Notes under the pieces: generated by a model | Database searches by the model: none | Told to the model about the DNA's origin: nothing | Seen by the model: the letters and a program-made list of their open reading frames with translations, nothing else | Position numbers and translations under genes: made by a program | From: Planctomycetota bacterium | GTDB taxonomy: Bacteria > Planctomycetota > B15-G4 > JADJEK01 | Assembly (NCBI GenBank): GCA_016213895.1 | Contig: JACQZJ010000078.1 | Location: forward strand, 51,689-90,260 | Direction: 5' to 3' | Length of the DNA: 38,572 nt | Shown here: positions 27,473 through 38,572 of the stretch, piece by piece | Layout of the letters: each line of letters starts with the position of its first letter | Numbering within the stretch: position 1 is the first letter of the stretch

Positions 27473-28540
27473 TCAGTCCGGGAAGAGCATGCCCTGGGCC
27501 GGTCCCGGCCGGCGGAAGTGCGCAGAGGACAGCTCGATTCCGCCGTCCTCGCGGAATCCGGCCTTGTGGCGCGCGAGCAGGAAGAGCGACTCGATCTCGT
27601 TGGCGAAGACGCCCTCGCCGCGCATCCTGTGGCCGAAGCGCGCGTCGGTCAGGCGGCCGCCGCGCATGTCGCGGATGCGGTGGAGCACCTTGGTCCTGCG
27701 CTCGGGCAGGTGCTCCTCGAGCCAGCGCTCGAACAGGTCCGCCACGCCGAACGGCAGGCGCACCACCTGGTAGCCGGCGGAGCGCGCGCCCGCCTTCCGC
27801 GCCGCGGCGAGGAGGTCCGGCAGCTCGTGGTCGTTCAGGCCCGGGATCACGGGCGCGGCCATGACCGAGACCGGCACTCCCGCGCCCGCGAGCGCCGCGA
27901 TCGCCTCGATGCGCTTCTCCGGCCGGGCCGCGCGCGGCTCGAGGATCCCGGCGAGCGCGGCGTCGAGCGTGGTGATCGAGAGCGCGACGCGCGCCGCGCC
28001 GATGGCCGCGAGCCCGGCGAGCAGGTCGAGGTCGCGCGTCACCACCGCGCCTTTCGTGCACACCTCCACCGGGTTCCGGAACTCGGCCAGCACCTCGAGG
28101 CAGCGGCGCGTCAGCCCGAGCGTTCTCTCGATCGGCTGATAGCAGTCCGTGACGCCGCTCAGGTTGACCGGCTCGGGCCGCCAGCTCTCCTTCATCAATT
28201 CGCGGCGCAGGAGCTCGGGCGCGTCCTCCTTCACCATGATCTTCGACTCGAAGTCGAGCCCGGCGGAGAAGCCGAGGTACTCGTGGTACGGCCGCGCATA
28301 GCAGTAGATGCAGCCGTGCTCGCAGCCGCGGTAGGGGTTGACGCTCACCGTGTAGGGCAGGTCCGGGCTGTCGTTCCAGCTCAGGATGGAACGCGAGGCG
28401 TCGCGGAAGAAGCGCGTGCGCGGGAGCGGCGCCTCCTCGTCAAGCACGTCCTGATCAGGGACGAACTCGATCTCGTCGAAGCGGCATTTCGGGTTCTCGC
28501 CCGTGCCGCGGCCGTGGATCGCACGCTCGCCTCGCTTCAT
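27473..28540 (-). CDS. PA0069-type radical SAM protein (SPL-like, COG1533), SOS-controlled
   Basis: 355 aa. The ATG at 28540 has AGAGGAGG 7 nt upstream. The open frame extends further, but the extra part is shadow. The radical SAM motif CxxxCxxC is in 'GCEHGCIYCYARPYHEYLG', with 'NPYRGCEHG' as in the PA0069 family and its relative spore photoproduct lyase. Further family motifs are 'GVTDCYQPIERTLGLTRRCL', 'VCTKGAVVTRDLDLL', 'APVIPGLND' and 'GYQVVRLPFGV'. The C-terminus has 'DARFGHRMRGEGVFANEI'. A LexA-type direct repeat (28579-28593) overlaps its likely promoter. Spore photoproduct lyase reverses UV thymine dimers. A DNA-repair role here is inference from regulation and family kinship. Confidence 0.88.
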   Translation of the reverse strand: MKRGERAIHGRGTGENPKCRFDEIEFVPDQDVLDEEAPLPRTRFFRDASRSILSWNDSPDLPYTVSVNPYRGCEHGCIYCYARPYHEYLGFSAGLDFESKIMVKEDAPELLRRELMKESWRPEPVNLSGVTDCYQPIERTLGLTRRCLEVLAEFRNPVEVCTKGAVVTRDLDLLAGLAAIGAARVALSITTLDAALAGILEPRAARPEKRIEAIAALAGAGVPVSVMAAPVIPGLNDHELPDLLAAARKAGARSAGYQVVRLPFGVADLFERWLEEHLPERRTKVLHRIRDMRGGRLTDARFGHRMRGEGVFANEIESLFLLARHKAGFREDGGIELSSAHFRRPGPAQGMLFPD

Positions 28541-28568
28541 GGCGGACCTCCTCTGGCCGCTGACGCCC

Positions 28569-28593
28569 ATCCTAGTGCGTTCGTGTTTCGTTC
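28569..28593 (-). promoter_or_regulatory. LexA-type box GTTC-N7-GTTC with -10, radical SAM gene
   Basis: On the plus strand GTTCGTGTTTCGTTC spans 28579-28593. Read toward the gene it is GAAC-N7-GAAC, followed after 4 nt by TAGGAT (28574-28569), a plausible -10, 28 nt before the ATG. The same direct repeat precedes lexA and imuA. The divergent ECF sigma gene starts 107 nt on the other side and might also be affected. Confidence 0.75.
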
Positions 28594-28699
28594 GCAAAGG
28601 AGTGTGGACTTCTCGCCAATGCGCCGCCCGCGCGCCGCCTGGCATGGCGCGGCTGAGGCGCGTACGCTTGGGGACGTCCTTCCCGGCGCGAGATGATCG

Positions 28700-29296
28700 A
28701 TGCCCGACATTCCGCAGGACACCGTCGCTGTCCTCGCCGCCGCCTCGGCTGGCGATCCGGCCGCGAGGAACCGGCTGTTCGAGATCGTGTATCGCGAGCT
28801 GCATTCCCTGGCCCACCGCGCCATGCGGGGAGAGTCGCCGCGGAACATCCTCCAAACCACGGCCCTCGTCCACGAAACGTACCTCCGCCTCGTCCCGGGA
28901 GACGACGCGCGCTGGGAGGGCCGCGAGCACTTCTTCCGCGCCGCGGCGCGCGCCATGCGCGGCATACTCGTCGACGAGGCGCGCGCGCGGCGCGCGACCA
29001 AACGCGGCCAAGGGAGGGCGCATCTCTCCCTCGAGGCGTGCTGCGAGCCGCCTGACGCGTCCGGCCGCCTCGCCGTCGACGACCTGGAGGAGCTGGACCG
29101 GGCCCTGGAGAAGCTAAGAGGAGAGGCCGGCGATGACCGCATGGCCACGGTCGTGGAGCTGATGTTCTTCGCCGGCCTGACCCAGGAGCAGGCCGCGGAG
29201 GTCCTGGGGGTCTCGAAGGGCACCGTGCGCCGGGACTGGGAGTTCGCCAAGGCCTGGCTGCGGCGCGAGATGACCGGCGGCGGTGCAAACGGTTGA
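28700..29296 (+). CDS. ECF sigma factor of the PF07638 (Sigma70_ECF) type
   Basis: 198 aa, ATG at 28700 with only a weak ribosome site. The sequence 'LQTTALVHETYLRL' (residues 51-64) and 'FFRAAARAMRGILVDEARAR' (78-97) are signatures of this subgroup, followed by region 4 ('VVELMFFAGLTQEQAAEVLG', 'VSKGTVRRDWEFAKAWLRRE'). These factors are abundant in Planctomycetota and Acidobacteriota and are commonly found with Ser/Thr kinases, which fits the kinase about 1.4 kb away. No anti-sigma gene is adjacent, so kinase-based control is likely but unproven. It converges with the beta-helix gene across a strong hairpin. Confidence 0.9.
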   Translation: MPDIPQDTVAVLAAASAGDPAARNRLFEIVYRELHSLAHRAMRGESPRNILQTTALVHETYLRLVPGDDARWEGREHFFRAAARAMRGILVDEARARRATKRGQGRAHLSLEACCEPPDASGRLAVDDLEELDRALEKLRGEAGDDRMATVVELMFFAGLTQEQAAEVLGVSKGTVRRDWEFAKAWLRREMTGGGANG

Positions 29297-29332
29297 CCCG
29301 CCGTTCGCGCTCCGCTTGCGCCAACGGCGGGT
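29296..29332. terminator. Convergent-gene hairpin, likely bidirectional terminator
   Basis: ACCCGCCGTT (29296-29305) and AACGGCGGGT (29323-29332) form a perfect 10-bp stem. The 17-nt loop can form an inner GCGC/GCGC stem. It starts at the last base of the ECF stop codon and lies 22 nt from the beta-helix stop. No T-tract. Confidence 0.55.
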
Positions 29333-29354
29333 CCGCCGGTGCGTGAAGGACGTG

Positions 29355-30596
29355 TCACTCCAAGATCATCGAGTACACGTTCGTCAACCGGTCGCCGACC
29401 AGCGCCTGCAGGACGATCCGGTACGGGCCGGGAGTGGGTGGAAGCGTCATGGGGAGCGAGAACAGCCCCTGCGCGTTGACGGGTCCCAGGAGAACGGACT
29501 GCTGGACCGGCGGCGCGATGTGCCAGTACCCGTACGTCGTGGGGACGGGGTACGGGTACGTGTCGAGGCCGACGAACAGCTGGAACCAGCTGCGAGGAGT
29601 CGCCGTCACCTTGACCTGGACCACGCCGCCTGGAACGGTGTCGCCGATCACGTACAGGTGGCGGTAGAACTGGTCGGCGCCCACGTCCACGATGCCCACG
29701 CCGCTGCGCGGGTCGTCCTCGAAGTCGTGGAGCGGCATGCCCACCGCGTACGTGTTGCCGTGGTACCGGCACGGCGAGTTGTTGGCGATGTGCAAGTCCC
29801 CGTTCGGCCGGTCCACGAACACTGGATCGTAGGTGAAGTTACCGACGCCGCCGCCGGCCCAGACCGACACGCAGCAGTAGTTGACGTCGGCGTTGCTGGA
29901 CGTGTCCTCGTAGATGTCGGCCCAGCCCTGGTTCTGGTAGACGATGGTGTTGGTGATCGCCGGGAAGGAGTTGGACAGACAGTCGATCGCGCCGTGCAGG
30001 GTGGTCTTGTTGTCGGTGATGGTGTTGTTCACGATGTTCGGCGAGGACTCGGCGCAGTAGATGGCGCTGCCGCCGTAGTAGGTCTTGTTCCTGGTGATGA
30101 CGTTGTTGGCGATCAGGGGGCACGACTTGTCGACCATGTGGATCCCCGGCGCACGAGTCGCGGTGTGCGACTGGCTCTTGGTGATAAGGTTGCTCAGGAT
30201 CGTGGGCGACGCGTGCTTGATGTAAATGCAGCTCTTGGAGTAGGAGACGCTGCTCTTGGTGATGGTGAACCCTTCCAGCACCGAGTGGTCGTCGTTCAGG
30301 AACGTGACGATGTCCGCGCTCTGTCCCTTGGTCAGAATGGTCTCGGCGGGCGCGAGGTCGTGGGTCCAGTAGTAGCCGTCCACGTCGCTCCGCACCGTGA
30401 TCGCCCGGTGGTCGAAGACGATATCATTCGCGGGCTCCGTGTAGGTCCCGGGCCGCACCAGGATCACGTCGCCGTCCGCGGCCGTGTCGATCGCGTTCTG
30501 CAGCGTCAGAAACTGGTCGGGGTAGATCCAGTAGGCCTGCGAGAAGGCGGCCGCCTGGAACGCCAGCAGCAGGAAGAGCGCAATCAGGATCCTCAT
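29355..30596 (-). CDS. Exported right-handed beta-helix repeat protein
   Basis: 413 aa with a signal peptide (residues 1-20, 'RILIALFLLLAFQAAAFSQA'). The start of the helix is 'TLQNAIDTAADGDVILVRPG', then short Asn/Ile-rich rungs typical of parallel beta-helices ('PTILSNLITKSQSH', 'CPLIANNVITRNKTYYGGSA', 'SPNIVNNTITDNKTTLHGAI'), followed by 'VDVGADQFY', a common exit motif. The last 100 residues form a beta-rich domain ('PGGVVQVKVTATPRSWFQLF', 'GPYRIVLQALVGDRL'). Probably extracellular, binding or cleaving a polysaccharide, but no catalytic residues were identified. Codon use looks less GC-extreme than its neighbours. It follows the kinase gene by 84 nt on the same strand. Confidence 0.8.
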   Translation of the reverse strand: MRILIALFLLLAFQAAAFSQAYWIYPDQFLTLQNAIDTAADGDVILVRPGTYTEPANDIVFDHRAITVRSDVDGYYWTHDLAPAETILTKGQSADIVTFLNDDHSVLEGFTITKSSVSYSKSCIYIKHASPTILSNLITKSQSHTATRAPGIHMVDKSCPLIANNVITRNKTYYGGSAIYCAESSPNIVNNTITDNKTTLHGAIDCLSNSFPAITNTIVYQNQGWADIYEDTSSNADVNYCCVSVWAGGGVGNFTYDPVFVDRPNGDLHIANNSPCRYHGNTYAVGMPLHDFEDDPRSGVGIVDVGADQFYRHLYVIGDTVPGGVVQVKVTATPRSWFQLFVGLDTYPYPVPTTYGYWHIAPPVQQSVLLGPVNAQGLFSLPMTLPPTPGPYRIVLQALVGDRLTNVYSMILE

Positions 30597-30615
30597 GGCT
30601 GTCCTCCGTGTACGA

Positions 30616-30637
30616 GGTCCCGCGCCATTGCGGGACC
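30616..30637 (-). terminator. Hairpin between kinase and beta-helix genes
   Basis: GGTCCCGC and GCGGGACC form a perfect 8-bp stem around a 6-nt loop. It lies 43 nt after the kinase stop and 19 nt before the beta-helix ATG (with GGAGG between), so it may be an attenuator or leader structure rather than a simple terminator. No T-tract. Confidence 0.45.
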
Positions 30638-30680
30638 GGGTGCTTTCCGAAAGCCAAGGCGGAGAACCGCGATCCCGGTG

Positions 30681-33257
30681 CTAACGGATTCCGACTTTTC
30701 CCGTGGCGAGATCGGCTGCCGGGCGCACGCCGAAGGAGTCGAACCGTCCACTCCCGTCGTTCGTGAACCGAGCCGCGGACCGGCAAAGCGAGGTGTTGCA
30801 GTCCCAGGAGCCTCCCCGGAAGGCCCGGAGGACCGAGTCCTCCGAGTCCCACGCGGAACCGTCGTTCGGGGCTCCCTCGTAGGAGTTCTTATCCGTGGAG
30901 TCCTGACACCATTCGGAGAGGTTGCCCTGCATGTCGTGCAAGCCGAACGGGTTCTGACGAAAGGACCCGACCGGCGCGTGGGTGACGTAGCCGTCGTCCA
31001 GCCAGTCCTCGAATCCCCAGTCCAGGACCCCGCCGAACCTCATCAGGAACTGGTCGGCGAGGTTCGCCGCTCCCGCGAGGCTCTCCTTCTCGTCGCCGCT
31101 CCACCACACCGTGGAAGTGCCCGCGCGGACCGCGTACTCCCACTCCGCCTCGGTGGGAAGGCGGAGCCCCAGGTTGCCGAGAACCTGCGCCGCCTCGTTC
31201 CAGGTCACCTGCTCGACGGGATGCAGCGGGGTCACCTTCTTGCCGCCGTACTCGTCGCCCGGCCGGTACGCGCTCGGGTTGCTGCCGGTGAAGCGCAGCC
31301 ACTGGCCCTGGGTCATCTCATACTTGGAAAGCAGGAAGGGGCGAACGGTCACGGCATGGACCGGTCCCTCGATGGGGCGCGCCTGCGGATCGACGTTCGG
31401 GGAGCCCGCGGGCTCGGCCTCGCTGGGCGGCCTGCCGCCCATGTCGAACGCTCCTCCCGGCAGCAGGACGAACACCAATCCGGTCTCCTCGGTGATGAGG
31501 AGCTTCCCGTCAGGTCCCCTCTCGGGCACGGCGCCCGTCTGGATGTGGGCGAACTCCCAGAGGCCCGAGCCCGGGTCCGGGCCGAGGGGAACCAGGCCGA
31601 GCTGGGGAGCGAGCCCGAGACCGTCGTAGCGCGGGCAGGCGCCGCGGTCGGCGATCGAGGCGATGGCGGCGTCCCAGCGCGCCGCCTGCTGCACGATGCT
31701 CCGGTCGTGCACCGTCTTCGCGAAGGCCAGGCGCTCCTCGACCCGCCGCAGCGTGCCCGACTCGGCGCTGGACAGGGCCAGCAGGCCCTTCACCAGCTCG
31801 CTCAGCACCTCGTGGCGCCACTCGCTCTCGGCGCTTCGAAACGCCGGCGCGCCGTCCGCGGCCAGGGGGGCCGAGGCGCGCAGGGCGGCCAGGTTCTGCT
31901 GGTGGACCTCCAGCCGCACGAGCAGGAAGCGCGCCCGGTCGATCCAGTCCTCTATCCGCGGGACCATCTCCGGCGCCGCGGGCCAGAGCCGCTGCGCCTC
32001 GGCCTCGAGGTCGGAAAGCAGCTTGACGTCGGACAGGCGGCGGATCTCCTCGTAGCGGGCCTGCGCGCGCGGATAGGACCAGAGGACGACGTAGCCGAGG
32101 AAGCCAAGGAGGGGCAGGACCGCGGCGACGACGGCCGTCGCCACGACCGGCCTGCGCCGGATCCGGCGCCAGGAGCGGGTCAAAACGCCGGCGGGCCGCG
32201 CCAGGATCGGCTCGCCGCGGGCCACGCGGCCCAGGTCCTCGGCGAAGAGCGCCGCGGTCTGGTAGCGCCGCGAGGGCTCCTTCTCCATGGCGGTGAGGAT
32301 GACGGTCTCGAGGTCGCGGGTCACGGACGGGTTGAGGCGCCGCGGCGCCACGGGCTCCTCCTCCAGGATCTGGCGGAAGACCTGCTCCGTGGTCTCGCCC
32401 TCGAAGGGAACGCGCCCGCACACCGCCTGGTAGAGGGTGACGCCGAGCGAGTACACGTCAGTGCGCGCGTCGATGGCGTGCTTCGTGCCGCGGAGCTGTT
32501 CCGGCGCGGCGTAGTGCGGAGTGCCGCGGAACTCGCCGGAGAGCGTCATGAAGGCGAGGTTCTGGTGACGCGCCACGCCGAAGTCCATGACCTTGGCTCG
32601 CCGCCCGTCCTCCACGCGGATGTTCGACGGCTTGACGTCCCGATGCACCACGCCCGCGGAGTGCGCCACGTGCAGGGCGCTGGCCACGTCGCCGGCCCAG
32701 CCGAGCAGCGCGGTCAAGGGGACCTTGTCGCCGCCGCCGGCGGCCACGCGCAGGATCTGGTCCAGGTCCTGGCCGGGCACCAGCTCCATGGCGAAGTAGC
32801 ACACGCCGCCTTGTTCGCCGCCGCTGTACACGGTCACGATGTTCGGGTGGCGCAGCCGCGAGACCACCTCCATCTCGCGCCAGAAGCGCGCGCGCGCCTC
32901 GGGAGACCCGGCCAGCTCCGGCCGGATGATCTTCAAGGCCACCTCGCGACCGATGGGCTCCTGGCGGGCGAGGTAGACCGCGCCCATGCCGCCGGCGCCG
33001 ATGCGGCGGAGCAGCCGGTACTCTCCGAGCCGCTCGAACGGCAGGCCCGGCTCCGCCTGCGCCGCGCCGGGGAATTCGGCCGGCCGCGCGAAGAAGGCGC
33101 TCGCCTCTGCGCCGGCTCCGAGCAGCGCCTCCACCTGCTCGAGGAGAGCGGGCTCATCGCGGCAAGCCTCGGCGAGGAACGCCTTGCGGCCCGCCTCGTC
33201 CCGCTCGAGGGCCGCGAGGTACAGGTCCTTCAGTCTCTCCTGACGTTCCTGCGTCAT
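30681..33257 (-). CDS. Transmembrane Ser/Thr protein kinase with C-terminal FGE-sulfatase domain
   Basis: 858 aa from the ATG at 33257, preceded by GGCGGAGG. The N-terminal 1-75 segment is helical ('RKAFLAEACRDEPALLEQVE'). The kinase domain spans about 78-345 with all active residues: glycine loop 'IGAGGMGAVYLA', K109 in 'VALKI', H205-R206-D207 in 'VVHRDVKPSN', D225-F-G and 'YAAPEQL'. One membrane helix (about 370-393) leads to a coiled region and then, from about residue 597, a formylglycine-generating-enzyme-like sensor domain ('VFVLLPGGAFDMGG', 'LRLPTEAEWEYAVRAGTST', 'FGLHDMQGNLSEWCQDS', 'FRGGSWDCNTSLCRSAARF'). A receptor kinase with an external domain is implied. The ECF factor nearby is a candidate partner. 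Confidence 0.93.
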   Translation of the reverse strand: MTQERQERLKDLYLAALERDEAGRKAFLAEACRDEPALLEQVEALLGAGAEASAFFARPAEFPGAAQAEPGLPFERLGEYRLLRRIGAGGMGAVYLARQEPIGREVALKIIRPELAGSPEARARFWREMEVVSRLRHPNIVTVYSGGEQGGVCYFAMELVPGQDLDQILRVAAGGGDKVPLTALLGWAGDVASALHVAHSAGVVHRDVKPSNIRVEDGRRAKVMDFGVARHQNLAFMTLSGEFRGTPHYAAPEQLRGTKHAIDARTDVYSLGVTLYQAVCGRVPFEGETTEQVFRQILEEEPVAPRRLNPSVTRDLETVILTAMEKEPSRRYQTAALFAEDLGRVARGEPILARPAGVLTRSWRRIRRRPVVATAVVAAVLPLLGFLGYVVLWSYPRAQARYEEIRRLSDVKLLSDLEAEAQRLWPAAPEMVPRIEDWIDRARFLLVRLEVHQQNLAALRASAPLAADGAPAFRSAESEWRHEVLSELVKGLLALSSAESGTLRRVEERLAFAKTVHDRSIVQQAARWDAAIASIADRGACPRYDGLGLAPQLGLVPLGPDPGSGLWEFAHIQTGAVPERGPDGKLLITEETGLVFVLLPGGAFDMGGRPPSEAEPAGSPNVDPQARPIEGPVHAVTVRPFLLSKYEMTQGQWLRFTGSNPSAYRPGDEYGGKKVTPLHPVEQVTWNEAAQVLGNLGLRLPTEAEWEYAVRAGTSTVWWSGDEKESLAGAANLADQFLMRFGGVLDWGFEDWLDDGYVTHAPVGSFRQNPFGLHDMQGNLSEWCQDSTDKNSYEGAPNDGSAWDSEDSVLRAFRGGSWDCNTSLCRSAARFTNDGSGRFDSFGVRPAADLATGKVGIR

Positions 33258-33570
33258 GGTCCGCCTCCGCCAAGTCCACTGGAGGACACGATACTGGCCG
33301 GACCTGGCGAGCCACCAGGCGAGGCGTTCGAATCCGAGGTCGCCGGCAGAGAAGGCGTGGCGCAGGTTCGGGGCTTCGACCTTCTGTGTGGGCAGCTGAT
33401 CGAGCTTGTTGCGGCGTTCCTCCAACGCCAGAGGCTGCAGGCTCCCGATTTCGACGCGTCCTCCTTGGGGGCTCAGGGAAACCGCGCTCCGCCCGCGCTT
33501 TCGGGGGCACGGCCGCGCGTCCCTTCACCGCGGGGCTGCGCTCGCCGGTTGTCCGAGCGACGCAGTTCGC

Positions 33571-33925: not shown

Positions 33926-33952
33926 GTTCGCTTTTCGTTCGGCGGCTATTCT
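33926..33952 (+). promoter_or_regulatory. LexA-type box GTTC-N7-GTTC and -10 upstream of lexA
   Basis: GTTCGCTTTTCGTTC (33926-33940) is followed by TATTCT (33947-33952), a likely -10, 34 nt before the ATG. Its position implies autorepression of lexA. Confidence 0.8.
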
Positions 33953-33986: not shown

Positions 33987-34628
33987 ATGACCCTGCCGAT
34001 CTCGCGCCGACAAATGGGGCTTCTGAACGCCTTCCGGGCCTTCGTGCGCACGCACGGCCGCACGCCGAGCGTGCGCGAACTCGGGGCCCTCCTCGGCCGC
34101 TCGGCCTCGACCGTCCACCAGACGCTCTCCGCCCTGGCCAGGAAGAAGCTGCTGGTGAACGGGGGAGGAGCCCACGGCTGGCGGCTCGGCGAAACAGCCC
34201 TGGATCAGGCCGCGCAACAGGCCGCGGCTCTCGAGCCGCTGACCGAGATGCTGCGCGTTCCCATCCGCGGCGCCATCGCCGCCGGCCGTCCCATCGAGGC
34301 GATCGACGATCCGCAGGACGCGCTCCTCCTTCCCCGCGATCAGGTGCGGGAGGGCACGTATGCGCTCCGCGTCCAGGGCGACAGCATGCGCGAGGACCAC
34401 ATCCTCGACGGCGACATCGTGCTCGTGGAGCCGCAGCCCAAGGTCGAGGACGGCGAGATCGCCGTGGCCCTGCTCGAGGACGGCACGGCCACGCTGAAGC
34501 GCGTCTATCGCGATGCGCGGCGCCGCAAGATCCGCCTGCAGCCGGCCAACGGCGCGATGAAGGCGCTCCTCGTCGACCAGGTCGAGATCCAGGGCAAGGC
34601 CGTCGGCATCTACCGCAAGCTCGGTTGA
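33987..34628 (+). CDS. lexA: LexA, SOS-response repressor
   Basis: 213 aa, ATG at 33987 after AGAAGGGA. The N-terminal winged helix-turn-helix reads 'RTPSVRELGALLGRSASTVH'. The autocleavage machinery is complete: the scissile A99-G100 bond in 'GAIAAGRP', the nucleophile S133 in 'VQGDSMRED' and the general base K171 in 'TATLKRVY'. On RecA-filament activation it cleaves itself and releases SOS genes. The direct-repeat operator just upstream and the same site before imuA and the radical SAM gene define its probable local targets. A much longer open frame passes through this gene from 29283, but it is shadow upstream of this ATG. Confidence 0.95.
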   Translation: MTLPISRRQMGLLNAFRAFVRTHGRTPSVRELGALLGRSASTVHQTLSALARKKLLVNGGGAHGWRLGETALDQAAQQAAALEPLTEMLRVPIRGAIAAGRPIEAIDDPQDALLLPRDQVREGTYALRVQGDSMREDHILDGDIVLVEPQPKVEDGEIAVALLEDGTATLKRVYRDARRRKIRLQPANGAMKALLVDQVEIQGKAVGIYRKLG

Positions 34629-35223: not shown

Positions 35224-35245
35224 GTTCGTATTTTGTTCGTATACT
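35224..35245 (+). promoter_or_regulatory. LexA-type box GTTC-N7-GTTC and -10 upstream of imuA
   Basis: GTTCGTATTTTGTTC (35224-35238) is followed by TATACT (35240-35245), 11 nt before the imuA ATG. The operator sits directly against the -10, so bound LexA should block the imuA-imuB-dnaE2 transcript. Confidence 0.8.
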
Positions 35246-35255
35246 CTCATCTGCC

Positions 35256-35894
35256 ATGACTACCCTCTCCACTGACATCCCCTCCCTCGACTCCCTCCTT
35301 CCTGACCACGGCCTGCCCCGCGGCAGCCTGATCCAGCTCTCCGGTACCCCCTCCTGCGGCAAGACCGCCCTCGCCTTCGCCCTGATCGCCGCGGCCCAGC
35401 GCCGCAACGAAGACGCCGCCTTCATCGATCCGCGCCGCGCCTTCTTCGCGCCCGCGGCGCAGGCCGCGGGCATCGACCTCGACCGCCTGCTCCTGGTGCG
35501 CCCGCCGCCTCCTCTTGACGCGCGCGACGCCACGGCCGGCCTGCGCGTCCTCGATCACCTGCTGCGCAGCAAGGGCTTCCCGCTGATCGTCCTCGACCTG
35601 TCCGGCGAGTGCCTCGCGCCGCCCCTCCACCGCCTGTTCCGCGTGGGGCGTCTGGCCAAGGTGAGCGAGACGATCGCCCTGCTCATCACCGAGTCCGCGC
35701 CCGGCGAGCCCTCCCTCGGCTCCGCCATCGCGCTGCGCCTGGCCGTGGCGCGCAGCGGCTTCTCCTTCGTGCCGCGCGCGCAGACGCCCTTCTCGCTCGG
35801 CGGCTCGCGCGTGACCGTCGAAATCAGGAAGAGCAAGTTCGGACCGCCCGGCGGCCGCGCCGACCTCGATCTCCTTCCAGGCAGGACGAGTTGA
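35256..35894 (+). CDS. imuA: ImuA, RecA-like SOS mutagenesis protein
   Basis: 212 aa, ATG at 35256. It is a RecA-fold protein with 'GLPRGSLIQLSG' and an apparently complete Walker A 'GTPSCGKT' (residues 30-37), 'DLDRLLLVRP', and a Walker-B-like hydrophobic strand 'FPLIVLDLSGE'. The C-terminal 'VEIRKSKFGPPGGRADLDL' resembles the RecA/ImuA end. It is the first gene of the SOS cassette imuA-imuB-dnaE2 that performs error-prone translesion synthesis. Whether this version hydrolyses ATP is unknown. The imuB start is 22 nt downstream. Confidence 0.85.
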   Translation: MTTLSTDIPSLDSLLPDHGLPRGSLIQLSGTPSCGKTALAFALIAAAQRRNEDAAFIDPRRAFFAPAAQAAGIDLDRLLLVRPPPPLDARDATAGLRVLDHLLRSKGFPLIVLDLSGECLAPPLHRLFRVGRLAKVSETIALLITESAPGEPSLGSAIALRLAVARSGFSFVPRAQTPFSLGGSRVTVEIRKSKFGPPGGRADLDLLPGRTS

Positions 35895-35916: not shown

Positions 35917-37440
35917 GTGCGCGAACCGGCCGGTCTGCCCGGCGAAGCCTTCCCCGCGCGGCGCACGGCCTGCGCGTTCGTGCCGGGCTTTTGCGCCGCG
36001 GCGCACGCACGCGCCGACCCCGCGCTCGCGGGCGCGGCGTTCGCCGTGGCCGGACGGCTGGAGAAGCGCGACCTGGTCTCGGCCGCCTCGCCGCAGGCGC
36101 TCGCCGCCGGGGTGAAGATCGGCATGACCGCGGCGCAGGCGCTCGCGGCCTGCTCCGCGCTCTGCCTCCTGCCCGAACAGTCGGATCTCGAGGAGCAAGC
36201 GCTCGCCGAGCTGACCGAGGCCCTGAGGAGCGTGTCTCCGGCCGTGGAAGCGGCCGGGAACGGCCTGTTCCACCTCGATCCGCGCGGCCTGTCGCGGGTG
36301 CACGGCGACGAAGCAACGATCCTCGAGCGCATGGTCGCGGTCGTGTCGCGCCTTGGCTTCCCGGACGCGCGCGCCGCCGTGGCCGACACGCGCTTCGCCG
36401 CCTGCGCCGCGGCCGCCTGCGCCGAGTCGCCCACCACGCTGGTCCCGCCGGGAGAGACGCGCGCCTTCCTCGCGCCGCTGCCCCTCGACCTCCTGCCCCT
36501 CTCGCAAGAGAACCTCGAACGCCTGCGCGCCCTGGGCCTCAAGACCCTGGGAGAGTTCGCCGCCCTGCCCGCGGCCTCGGTCGAGGTGCGCTACGGCCTC
36601 GAGGGCGTCCGCGCCCACCGCCTGGCGCGCGGCCTGGACAGCGAGCCGCTGGCGCGCACGCCGGAGATCGAGGAGATCGCGGAGACCTTCGAGCTGGAGG
36701 TTCGCATCGACGGACTGCAGCAGCTCGCCCCGATCCTCGAGACTCTTCTCGACCGCGTGCTCCCTCGCCTCGACGGCCGCGGCGCCCTCGGAGTCGAGGC
36801 CGCGTTCCTCCTCGACGACGGCAAGACCGTCGAGGTGCTCGCCGAGCCGGCCGCGCCCTGCGCCGACCAGAAGACGCTCCTCACGCTCCTCTCCCTCGAG
36901 ATCGAACGTACCGCCTTCTCCGCGCCGGTGGTCGAGGCGACCGTGCGCGTGCTGGCCGCGGCGCCGCGCGTTGCCGAGCAGGGCAGCCTCTTCGCGCGCC
37001 GTTGCGTCGATCCGGGGCGCGTGCAGCGCGTGCTGGCGCGCCTGCGCTCGCTCTGCGGCGCAAACGCGCTCCTGCACCCGAGCGTTCGCGCCGCGCACCG
37101 GCCCGAGGCGCGCACGGCGCCGTCCGCGACTCCCGGCCGTGGAGCAGCAGAGCCCGACCCGCAGCCCGCGCTCCCCCTCTCTCCCGCCCTGCGCCTGCTC
37201 GATCCGCCCGCGCCCGCCCGCGTGCGCCTGCGCCAGGGCCGCATCCTCTCCTTCGCGCTTTCCGGCCAGCCGCCGCTCCTGGTGCGCCTGCGCTTCGGCC
37301 CCTGCTGCCTCTCCGGCGAATGGTGGGAGCGGCCCTTCGCGCGCGACTACTTCGCGGTCGTCACCGCTGGCCACGGCTGGTACTGGCTGTATCGCGACCG
37401 CGCCACCGGCTCCTGGTACGTGCACGGGGTGTTCGACTGA
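35917..37440 (+). CDS. imuB: ImuB, catalytically inactive Y-family polymerase homologue
   Basis: 507 aa from GTG 35917, with AAGGAGG directly upstream. An ATG at 35913 is in another frame. The Y-family layout is recognisable ('RRTACAFVPGFCAAAHARAD', 'GVKIGMTAAQALAACSAL', 'FAACAAAACAES', 'LRALGLKTLGEFAALPAASV'), but the metal-binding acidic residues expected near the N-terminus and in the SxDE motif are replaced ('AAGNGLFHLDPRGL'), as in other ImuB proteins. Two possible beta-clamp-binding peptides are QGSLF (355-359) and QPALPLS (416-422). ImuB acts as the hub linking ImuA, DnaE2 and the clamp. Its TGA overlaps the dnaE2 start (TGATG). Confidence 0.92.
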   Translation: MREPAGLPGEAFPARRTACAFVPGFCAAAHARADPALAGAAFAVAGRLEKRDLVSAASPQALAAGVKIGMTAAQALAACSALCLLPEQSDLEEQALAELTEALRSVSPAVEAAGNGLFHLDPRGLSRVHGDEATILERMVAVVSRLGFPDARAAVADTRFAACAAAACAESPTTLVPPGETRAFLAPLPLDLLPLSQENLERLRALGLKTLGEFAALPAASVEVRYGLEGVRAHRLARGLDSEPLARTPEIEEIAETFELEVRIDGLQQLAPILETLLDRVLPRLDGRGALGVEAAFLLDDGKTVEVLAEPAAPCADQKTLLTLLSLEIERTAFSAPVVEATVRVLAAAPRVAEQGSLFARRCVDPGRVQRVLARLRSLCGANALLHPSVRAAHRPEARTAPSATPGRGAAEPDPQPALPLSPALRLLDPPAPARVRLRQGRILSFALSGQPPLLVRLRFGPCCLSGEWWERPFARDYFAVVTAGHGWYWLYRDRATGSWYVHGVFD

Positions 37441-38572
37441 TGGCCGCGGACGCGACGCCTCCCTACGCCGAGCTGCACTGCCACTCGAACTTCTCCTTCC
37501 TCGAGGGCGCCTCGCACGTCGAGGAGCTGGTCGCGCGGGCGAAAGAGCTCGGCTATTGCGCCCTGGCCCTCACCGACCGGGACGGCGCGTACGGCGCGCC
37601 CGCCTTCCACCAGGCCGCGGCCGAGGCCGGCCTGAAGCCGCTTCTCGGCGCCGAGGTGACGCTCGCCTCGGGCCACCACGTCACGCTGCTCGTCAAGGAC
37701 GCCCGCGGCTGGTCGAACCTGACGCGCCTCTTGACGCGCGGGCGCATGCGCGAGGAGAAGGGCCGCTCGACGGTCACCTTCGAGGAAGCGGCCGCCTGCG
37801 CGCCCGGGCTCATCGCGCTCTCCGGCTGTCGCCGCGGGGAAGTGCCCGCGCTCCTCCTCGGCGACGACGCAGAGGGAGCCGCGGCCGCAGCCGCGCGCTG
37901 GCGGGACGCCTTCGGCCAGGACGGCTTCTACCTCGAGCTTGAGGACCACCTGCTCGAGGAGGACGAGCGCTTGAACGCGCGCCTCGAGTGGCTCGGCCGC
38001 GCGCTCGGCGTGCCGCGCGTGGCCACGGGCAACGCCCACTTCGCCGCGCCCGCCGGCCGGCGCCTGCAGGACGTGCTCACCGCCGTGCGCCACCGCACCG
38101 ACCTGGACCGCGCCGGCACGCTTCTCTTCCCCAACGGCGAGCGCTTCCTCAAACCAATCGCGGACGTCGCGCGCCGCTTCCGCCGCTTCCCCGGCGCGGT
38201 GCGAAGAAGCGCGGCCGTCGCCGAGCAGTGCGCCTTCTCGCTCGGCGAGCTGTCCTACCGCTTCCCCGCCTTCGCCGTGCCGGCAGGAGAGACGCCCTTC
38301 TCCTACCTGCATCGCCTGGTGCACGAGGGGGCGCGGCAGCGCTACCGGCCGCTCACTCCCAAGGCCGCCATGCAGATCGCCCGCGAGTTGGACGTCATCT
38401 GCCGCCTCGACCTGGCCGGCTACTTCCTCATCGTCTGGGACATCGTGCGCTTCGCCCGCGAACAAGGAGTCCTCTGCCAGGGGCGCGGCTCGGCGGCCAA
38501 CTCCGCGGTCTGTTATTGCCTGGGGATCACCGCCGTCGACCCGGTGCGCATGGGCCTGTTGTTCGCGCGTTT
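37440..38572 (+). CDS. dnaE2: DnaE2, error-prone DNA polymerase III alpha-type subunit (3' end outside window)
   Basis: Open from ATG 37440, overlapping the imuB stop, to the window edge: 377 codons visible of roughly 1000-1100 expected. It begins with the PHP domain ('YAELHCHSNFSFLEGASHVE', 'ALALTDRDGAYGAPAFHQAA', 'ATGNAHFAAPAGRRLQDVLT') and continues into the polymerase palm region ('DLAGYFLIVWDIVRFAREQG', 'CQGRGSAANSAVCYCLGIT'). It is the catalytic polymerase of the ImuABC translesion system and is probably SOS-induced from the imuA promoter. Confidence 0.95.
   Translation, partial: MAADATPPYAELHCHSNFSFLEGASHVEELVARAKELGYCALALTDRDGAYGAPAFHQAAAEAGLKPLLGAEVTLASGHHVTLLVKDARGWSNLTRLLTRGRMREEKGRSTVTFEEAAACAPGLIALSGCRRGEVPALLLGDDAEGAAAAAARWRDAFGQDGFYLELEDHLLEEDERLNARLEWLGRALGVPRVATGNAHFAAPAGRRLQDVLTAVRHRTDLDRAGTLLFPNGERFLKPIADVARRFRRFPGAVRRSAAVAEQCAFSLGELSYRFPAFAVPAGETPFSYLHRLVHEGARQRYRPLTPKAAMQIARELDVICRLDLAGYFLIVWDIVRFAREQGVLCQGRGSAANSAVCYCLGITAVDPVRMGLLFAR

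Follow-up and report, generated by a model that had tools for sequence, protein, structure and literature searches.

The PA0069-type radical SAM gene studied here is preceded by a LexA-type box, and the sequence evidence makes SOS control of this gene in its lineage very likely. The gene lies in a stretch of Planctomycetota DNA of 38,572 nucleotides (the window), together with lexA and genes for translesion synthesis. Its product is unlikely to be a canonical spore photoproduct lyase (SPL), because the hydrogen-donor cysteine of SPL is absent. We favor, with a little more than even confidence, an SOS-induced radical SAM enzyme which acts on damaged DNA and is not a true SPL.

The gene is located at positions 27473 to 28540 on the minus strand and encodes a protein of 355 amino acids with a CxxxCxxC motif at C73, C77 and C80. 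These radical SAM cluster cysteines were invariant in 60/60 aligned sequences. The protein passed the curated cut-off of the family model NF033668 (rSAM_PA0069) with 446.5 versus 360 bits, covering positions 2–341 of 348. This agrees with the PA0069-type identity proposed in the original prediction, whose range of 27473–28593 comprises the gene together with its box. Radical_SAM (PF04055) was the sole Pfam match at E 0.001. The second-best NCBIfam match was the Rv2578c family (NF038135), a sister radical SAM family, with 210 bits and below the cut-off of 430. The Rv2578c-family gene is an SOS gene in mycobacteria. The orthologue of genome G014 (L068, C107:4636-6699) is split at the radical SAM cysteine motif by an open frame of approximately 1 kb, flanked by the profile matches 8–83 and 79–352, and the insertion looks like an intein. 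Copies broken by stops or frame changes were observed in one alphaproteobacterial (G131) and one gammaproteobacterial genome (G234). Hence, a gene of this family can be lost.

The box of the original prediction was confirmed: GTTCGTGTTTCGTTC is located at positions 28579 to 28593 (plus strand), 38 nt before the ATG, and reads GAAC-N7-GAAC on the strand of the gene. It belongs to the direct repeat class GTTC-N7-GTTC. A pattern scan of this promoter found neither the E. coli type (CTGT-N8-ACAG) nor the GAAC-N4-GTTC type. Inspection by eye revealed the promoter-like hexamers TTGCGA (28592–28597) and TAGGAT (28569–28574) on the minus strand (28569–28597). They are 17 nt apart and below the scan threshold, and the box sits in their spacer. 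A consensus promoter scan with its stricter threshold reported no promoter at this gene. In the orthologue of G001, a relative of the window's genome, the hexamers TTGCGA and TAGAAT were seen by eye at equal spacing. A ribosome-binding-like AGGAGG, also found by eye, precedes the ATG at positions 28547–28552 (minus strand). LexA bound to the GTTC-N7-GTTC box would cover the promoter spacer.

Two further boxes of this type are present in the window. The first, GTTCGCTTTTCGTTC (33926–33940, plus strand), precedes lexA (33987–34628, plus strand), which encodes a protein of 213 amino acids passing the TIGR00498 cut-off. The second, GTTCGTATTTTGTTC (35224–35238, plus strand), precedes an imuA-like gene (35256–35894, plus strand) for a RecA-fold protein whose match to NF033429 (ImuA) is under the cut-off of that family. 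An imuB-like gene with an IMS domain (35917–37440, plus strand) follows, and a dnaE2-like error-prone polymerase gene (37440–38572, plus strand) extends past the end of the window. The region between the PA0069 gene and lexA (28700–33425) contains an ECF sigma factor gene, a gene for a beta-helix protein and a long open reading frame read as a Ser/Thr kinase. The ECF sigma factor gene (Sig-70_X6; 28700–29296, plus strand) is divergent from the PA0069 gene and starts 107 nt from its box. PADLOC gave no match, leaving a role as a defence system unsupported. Upon DNA damage, RecA-stimulated cleavage of LexA would free the PA0069 gene, lexA and imuA-imuB-dnaE2. Judging by the fold model and the invariance of the CxxxCxxC motif, the enzyme would then generate a 5'-deoxyadenosyl radical from SAM at a [4Fe-4S] cluster and would most likely use this radical to reverse or process a DNA lesion.

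The predicted structure places the protein close to SPL. An AlphaFold model calculated from 60 aligned sequences reached a pLDDT of 92.8 and a pTM of 0.91. The best solved folds retrieved with Foldseek were all SPL (E about 1e-7), and structural comparison gave Z scores of 18.9–19.2 for SPL over 266–274 residues, followed by NifB with 15.1. For 4FHG a Z score of 19.2 and an rmsd of 3.5 were obtained over 266 aligned residues; sequence identity to SPL as the nearest fold was 15%. A sequence profile searched against the PDB barely detected SPL (E 0.097). A profile comparison with proteins of the SPL family, most of which came from Actinomycetota genomes, yielded 95.9%, and the T-D motif of PA0069 was aligned with the S-D motif of SPL. 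Kinship to SPL, as originally proposed, was thus upheld by fold and by profile comparison; it did not extend to the donor cysteine. Two chained alignments place Gly129 of the PA0069 protein at the donor position C140 of SPL. Consequently, the likeness to SPL is not enough to assign photolesion reversal to this protein. Residue C133, which follows the T-D motif, was considered as an alternative donor and rejected as not general: 25 of the 60 sequences have Cys at this position, and 29 have Pro. Residue C147 is Cys in 44, and the only invariant cysteines are the three of the cluster. Further invariant residues include H75, Y79, H86, K104, D132, Y134, K163, R261 and R305.

These data bear on two other readings of the protein. 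It may be SOS-controlled and act on RNA, a nucleotide or a protein within the stress response instead of damaged DNA, which we regard as rather unlikely. The mixed fold neighbors below SPL (NifB, PFL-AE, lipoyl synthase and viperin), the lack of invariant cysteines outside the cluster and the lack of a repair gene as operon partner (see below) would fit such a substrate. However, SPL scored about 4 Z units above every other fold, and the gene shares its predicted regulation only with lexA and translesion polymerase genes. A true SPL that serves vegetative cells, for instance once they have dried and been exposed to UV, we consider improbable. The best fold match is SPL, and one report describes a UV-induced SPL in the non-spore-former Curtobacterium, citing spore photoproduct formation in dried cells (PMC12029717). 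The SPL relay is given as C141-Y99-Y97 in another paper, where one clostridial SPL carries the cysteine elsewhere (PMC5368176). The missing C140 therefore argues against SPL-type chemistry without excluding it. The exchange of C140 for Gly129 and the variability of C133 and C147 nevertheless speak against a true SPL, as does the failure of the protein to match the SPL Pfam model PF20903 at E 0.001.

The raw pattern GTTC-N7-GTTC occurred 103 times in the 5.5-Mb genome, compared to 54 times for a reversed control. Since it is so common, this short pattern alone is weak evidence. The longer 16-mer GTTCGNNTTTYGTTCG, which fits the lexA and imuA boxes, matched exactly at three places in 5.5 Mb, each inside the window: before lexA, before imuA and, as the third, before PA0069. 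Its loosened form GTTCGNNTTYYGTTCG matched the genome exactly four times, before these three genes and before a second lexA. In a scan of the window with a matrix built solely from sites of three related genomes, the PA0069 site ranked third (23.2), behind lexA and imuA; the next site scored 15.2. The PA0069 gene belongs to a very small set of LexA-type sites in this genome. The second LexA-type gene whose box is exact (L034 1501-2265, on contig C136 of the window's genome G000) lies 165 nt after the start of that box and is divergent from a nadB-like gene; a counterpart is present in G001 (L233, contig C211).

The 16-mer GTTCGNNTTYYGTTCG was then searched in G000, in its genus and family relatives G001–G003 and in G009. 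The box was present upstream of the PA0069 orthologue in 4/4 genomes of the family (G000–G003). These four genomes contain 15 exact sites at 15 places, and 13/15 precede SOS-type genes or the PA0069 orthologue: lexA (4), a lexA paralogue (2), imuA/imuB (4) and the PA0069 orthologue (4), with one site of G003 counting twice. The remaining two sites are near a Y1-transposase-like gene and a glutamine synthetase gene. In G003 the PA0069 orthologue (C822:1801-2844, minus strand) and lexA (C822:2956-3573, plus strand) are divergent with one common box between them, and in G001 both genes share a contig, with about 6.7 kb between them. When the upstream DNA of the orthologues from the four genomes, which represent three genera, was aligned, the box was the only solid invariant block. 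It is very improbable that the box is accidental or belongs to the divergent ECF sigma factor gene alone: despite the many raw matches in this GC-rich genome and the short distance to the ECF gene, an accidental origin is contradicted by the rarity of the 16-mer, its conservation in the family and the matrix rank, and in one of the four genomes the other neighbor of the box is lexA. Also recA was considered as a co-regulated gene. It was dropped, since G000 and G001 have no comparable site before recA (best scores −2.3 and 3.5) and the site in G003 is weak (5.6); in G002 no recA was found above the cut-off.

For a scan of the phylum, a matrix was derived from nine sites, none of them before PA0069, and 23 upstream regions of Planctomycetota PA0069 orthologues were scored, leaving out G014, with its detached N-terminal part, as well as weaker or partial orthologue matches. 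The regions of G000–G003 and G009 scored 22.4 to 27.7, whereas the background of 405 windows did not exceed 13.6. Among the 18 scored orthologues outside the family and G009 none had a strong site. Weak scores were obtained for G046 (12.2) and G054 (11.6), weaker ones for G015 (7.0) and G057 (7.1), and nothing for the rest. G005 and G007 lack the box before the PA0069 orthologue, although their LexA belongs to the same clade as that of the family.

This clade, comprising LexA of G000–G003, G005, G007 and G009, was recovered with an SH-aLRT value of 99 in a quick tree of 40 LexA-type proteins, in which eight alphaproteobacterial LexA proteins formed a separate clade (SH-aLRT 100). GTTC-N7-GTTC precedes lexA in 7/7 members of the Planctomycetota clade (L165, L166, L188, L169, L170 and L167 in G001–G003, G005, G007 and G009, respectively, in addition to the window). 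The alphaproteobacterial box has the same direct-repeat core and spacing, whereas LexA of the window's lineage falls outside the alphaproteobacterial clade. Because the identical motif occurs with separate LexA clades, it looks convergent, and on this one quick tree the operator appears to have been reached twice. By eye, AGACAAA-type sequences were noticed before the LexA-type genes L184, L192 and L194 (G016, G054 and G037), each followed by an imuA-like gene; this is apparently another operator. According to a published study, Planctomycetes have a LexA that makes no use of the E. coli motif (PMC3108266). Our literature search found no description of a Planctomycetota LexA operator, which is added by the present analysis.

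In a wider survey, LexA-type boxes before PA0069-family genes were sought at the best 80 of 595 loci, a selection by score and not at random. After L119 was dropped because of a cut N-terminus, 79 loci were scanned for exact matches to any of four known LexA patterns, in a stretch that begins 250 nt upstream of the match start and ends 30 nt downstream of it. Such a pattern was found at 29/79 of these best-scoring loci. By taxon, it was present at 12/15 alphaproteobacterial, 6/6 Pseudomonas, 4/4 Burkholderia/Paraburkholderia and 1/6 other gammaproteobacterial loci. PA0069 itself belongs to the LexA regulon of P. aeruginosa. A literature search yielded no paper linking PA0069 with LexA or radical SAM. 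A search of 142 alphaproteobacterial genomes gave 68 over the cut-off. Of the 30 best-scoring loci, which were fetched, 24 carried the box, in forward orientation at 23 and in reverse at 1; the remaining sequence of these same loci gave an expectation of 0.14. Among laboratory species, Caulobacter vibrioides gave a match in the family search. Among 229 gammaproteobacterial genomes 72 were over the cut-off; CTGT-N8-ACAG was found at 2/30 fetched loci. One further locus of these 30 (L298) carries TTAGTAATAATACTAA, the Xanthomonas-type operator. The outcome that would have refuted the original prediction, orthologues consistently lacking the box, did not occur in the family of G000–G003 (4/4) or in Alphaproteobacteria (24/30), but most other Planctomycetota orthologues and 28/30 gammaproteobacterial loci had no recognizable box. 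LexA control of PA0069 genes, as predicted from these boxes, is lineage-bound, strong in some groups and absent or unrecognized in others. A conserved operon partner was not detected among the near neighbors at the loci of the first survey (genes within a gap of <500 nt): 26/142 were on the same strand within 80 nt, and these belonged to scattered Pfam families, the most frequent accounting for 2/26.

One and the same orphan radical SAM gene keeps a LexA operator even where the operator itself has changed, which is strong evidence for a role in the DNA damage response. A bolder reading, which we hold to be less likely than not, is that PA0069-type enzymes represent a widespread, inducible branch of direct DNA lesion reversal outside sporulation, active in vegetative cells. 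They would rely on radical SAM chemistry but not on the cysteine relay of SPL, and their target would be a lesion for which enzymatic reversal is not yet known. Under this reading, the link to LexA in this lineage would be plainer for the PA0069 gene than for recA, and LexA would have arrived independently at the alphaproteobacterial direct-repeat operator. PA0069 thereby offers a testable enzyme family for the question whether DNA lesions are directly reversed by radicals outside spores.

For several phyla, the literature already places radical SAM proteins of the SplB kind under SOS control. SOS-regulated splB/COG1533 genes were described in Alpha- and Betaproteobacteria (PMC3323433), and the Pseudomonas boxes found here go beyond the statement on Gammaproteobacteria in that paper. 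Further reports mention SOS-regulated SplB (COG1533) in several species and in Bacteroidetes (PMC8565304), a radical SAM protein in the Gram-positive SOS core and in an EMSA-tested Balneolaeota regulon (PMC7739468), the radical SAM gene vnz_31145 in Streptomyces LexA data (PMC9380542) and SplB-like genes in operons with ImuB-C (PMC3765255). The suggested DNA repair role is partly supported: it gains from the SOS control seen at the sequence level and from the SPL fold, loses by the missing SPL cysteine, and is as an idea already in print. Added here are the conservation of the box at the family level, the very small set of sites, the assignment to the PA0069 subfamily and the missing SPL cysteine; the convergence of the operator with that of Alphaproteobacteria is likely a further addition.

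Compared to SPL (PDB 4FHC-4FHG, 4RH0 and 4K9R), the PA0069 protein has the radical SAM cluster motif and the nearest fold in common, but carries Gly in place of the donor cysteine, and its gene has LexA-type control instead of sporulation control. The published splB/COG1533 genes likewise encode SplB-group radical SAM proteins under LexA and share their regulons, as here, with lexA and error-prone polymerase genes. They come from other phyla with other motifs and are mostly called 'SplB' or 'radical SAM protein', whereas the present gene is pinned to the PA0069 subfamily (NF033668) in a Planctomycetota host.
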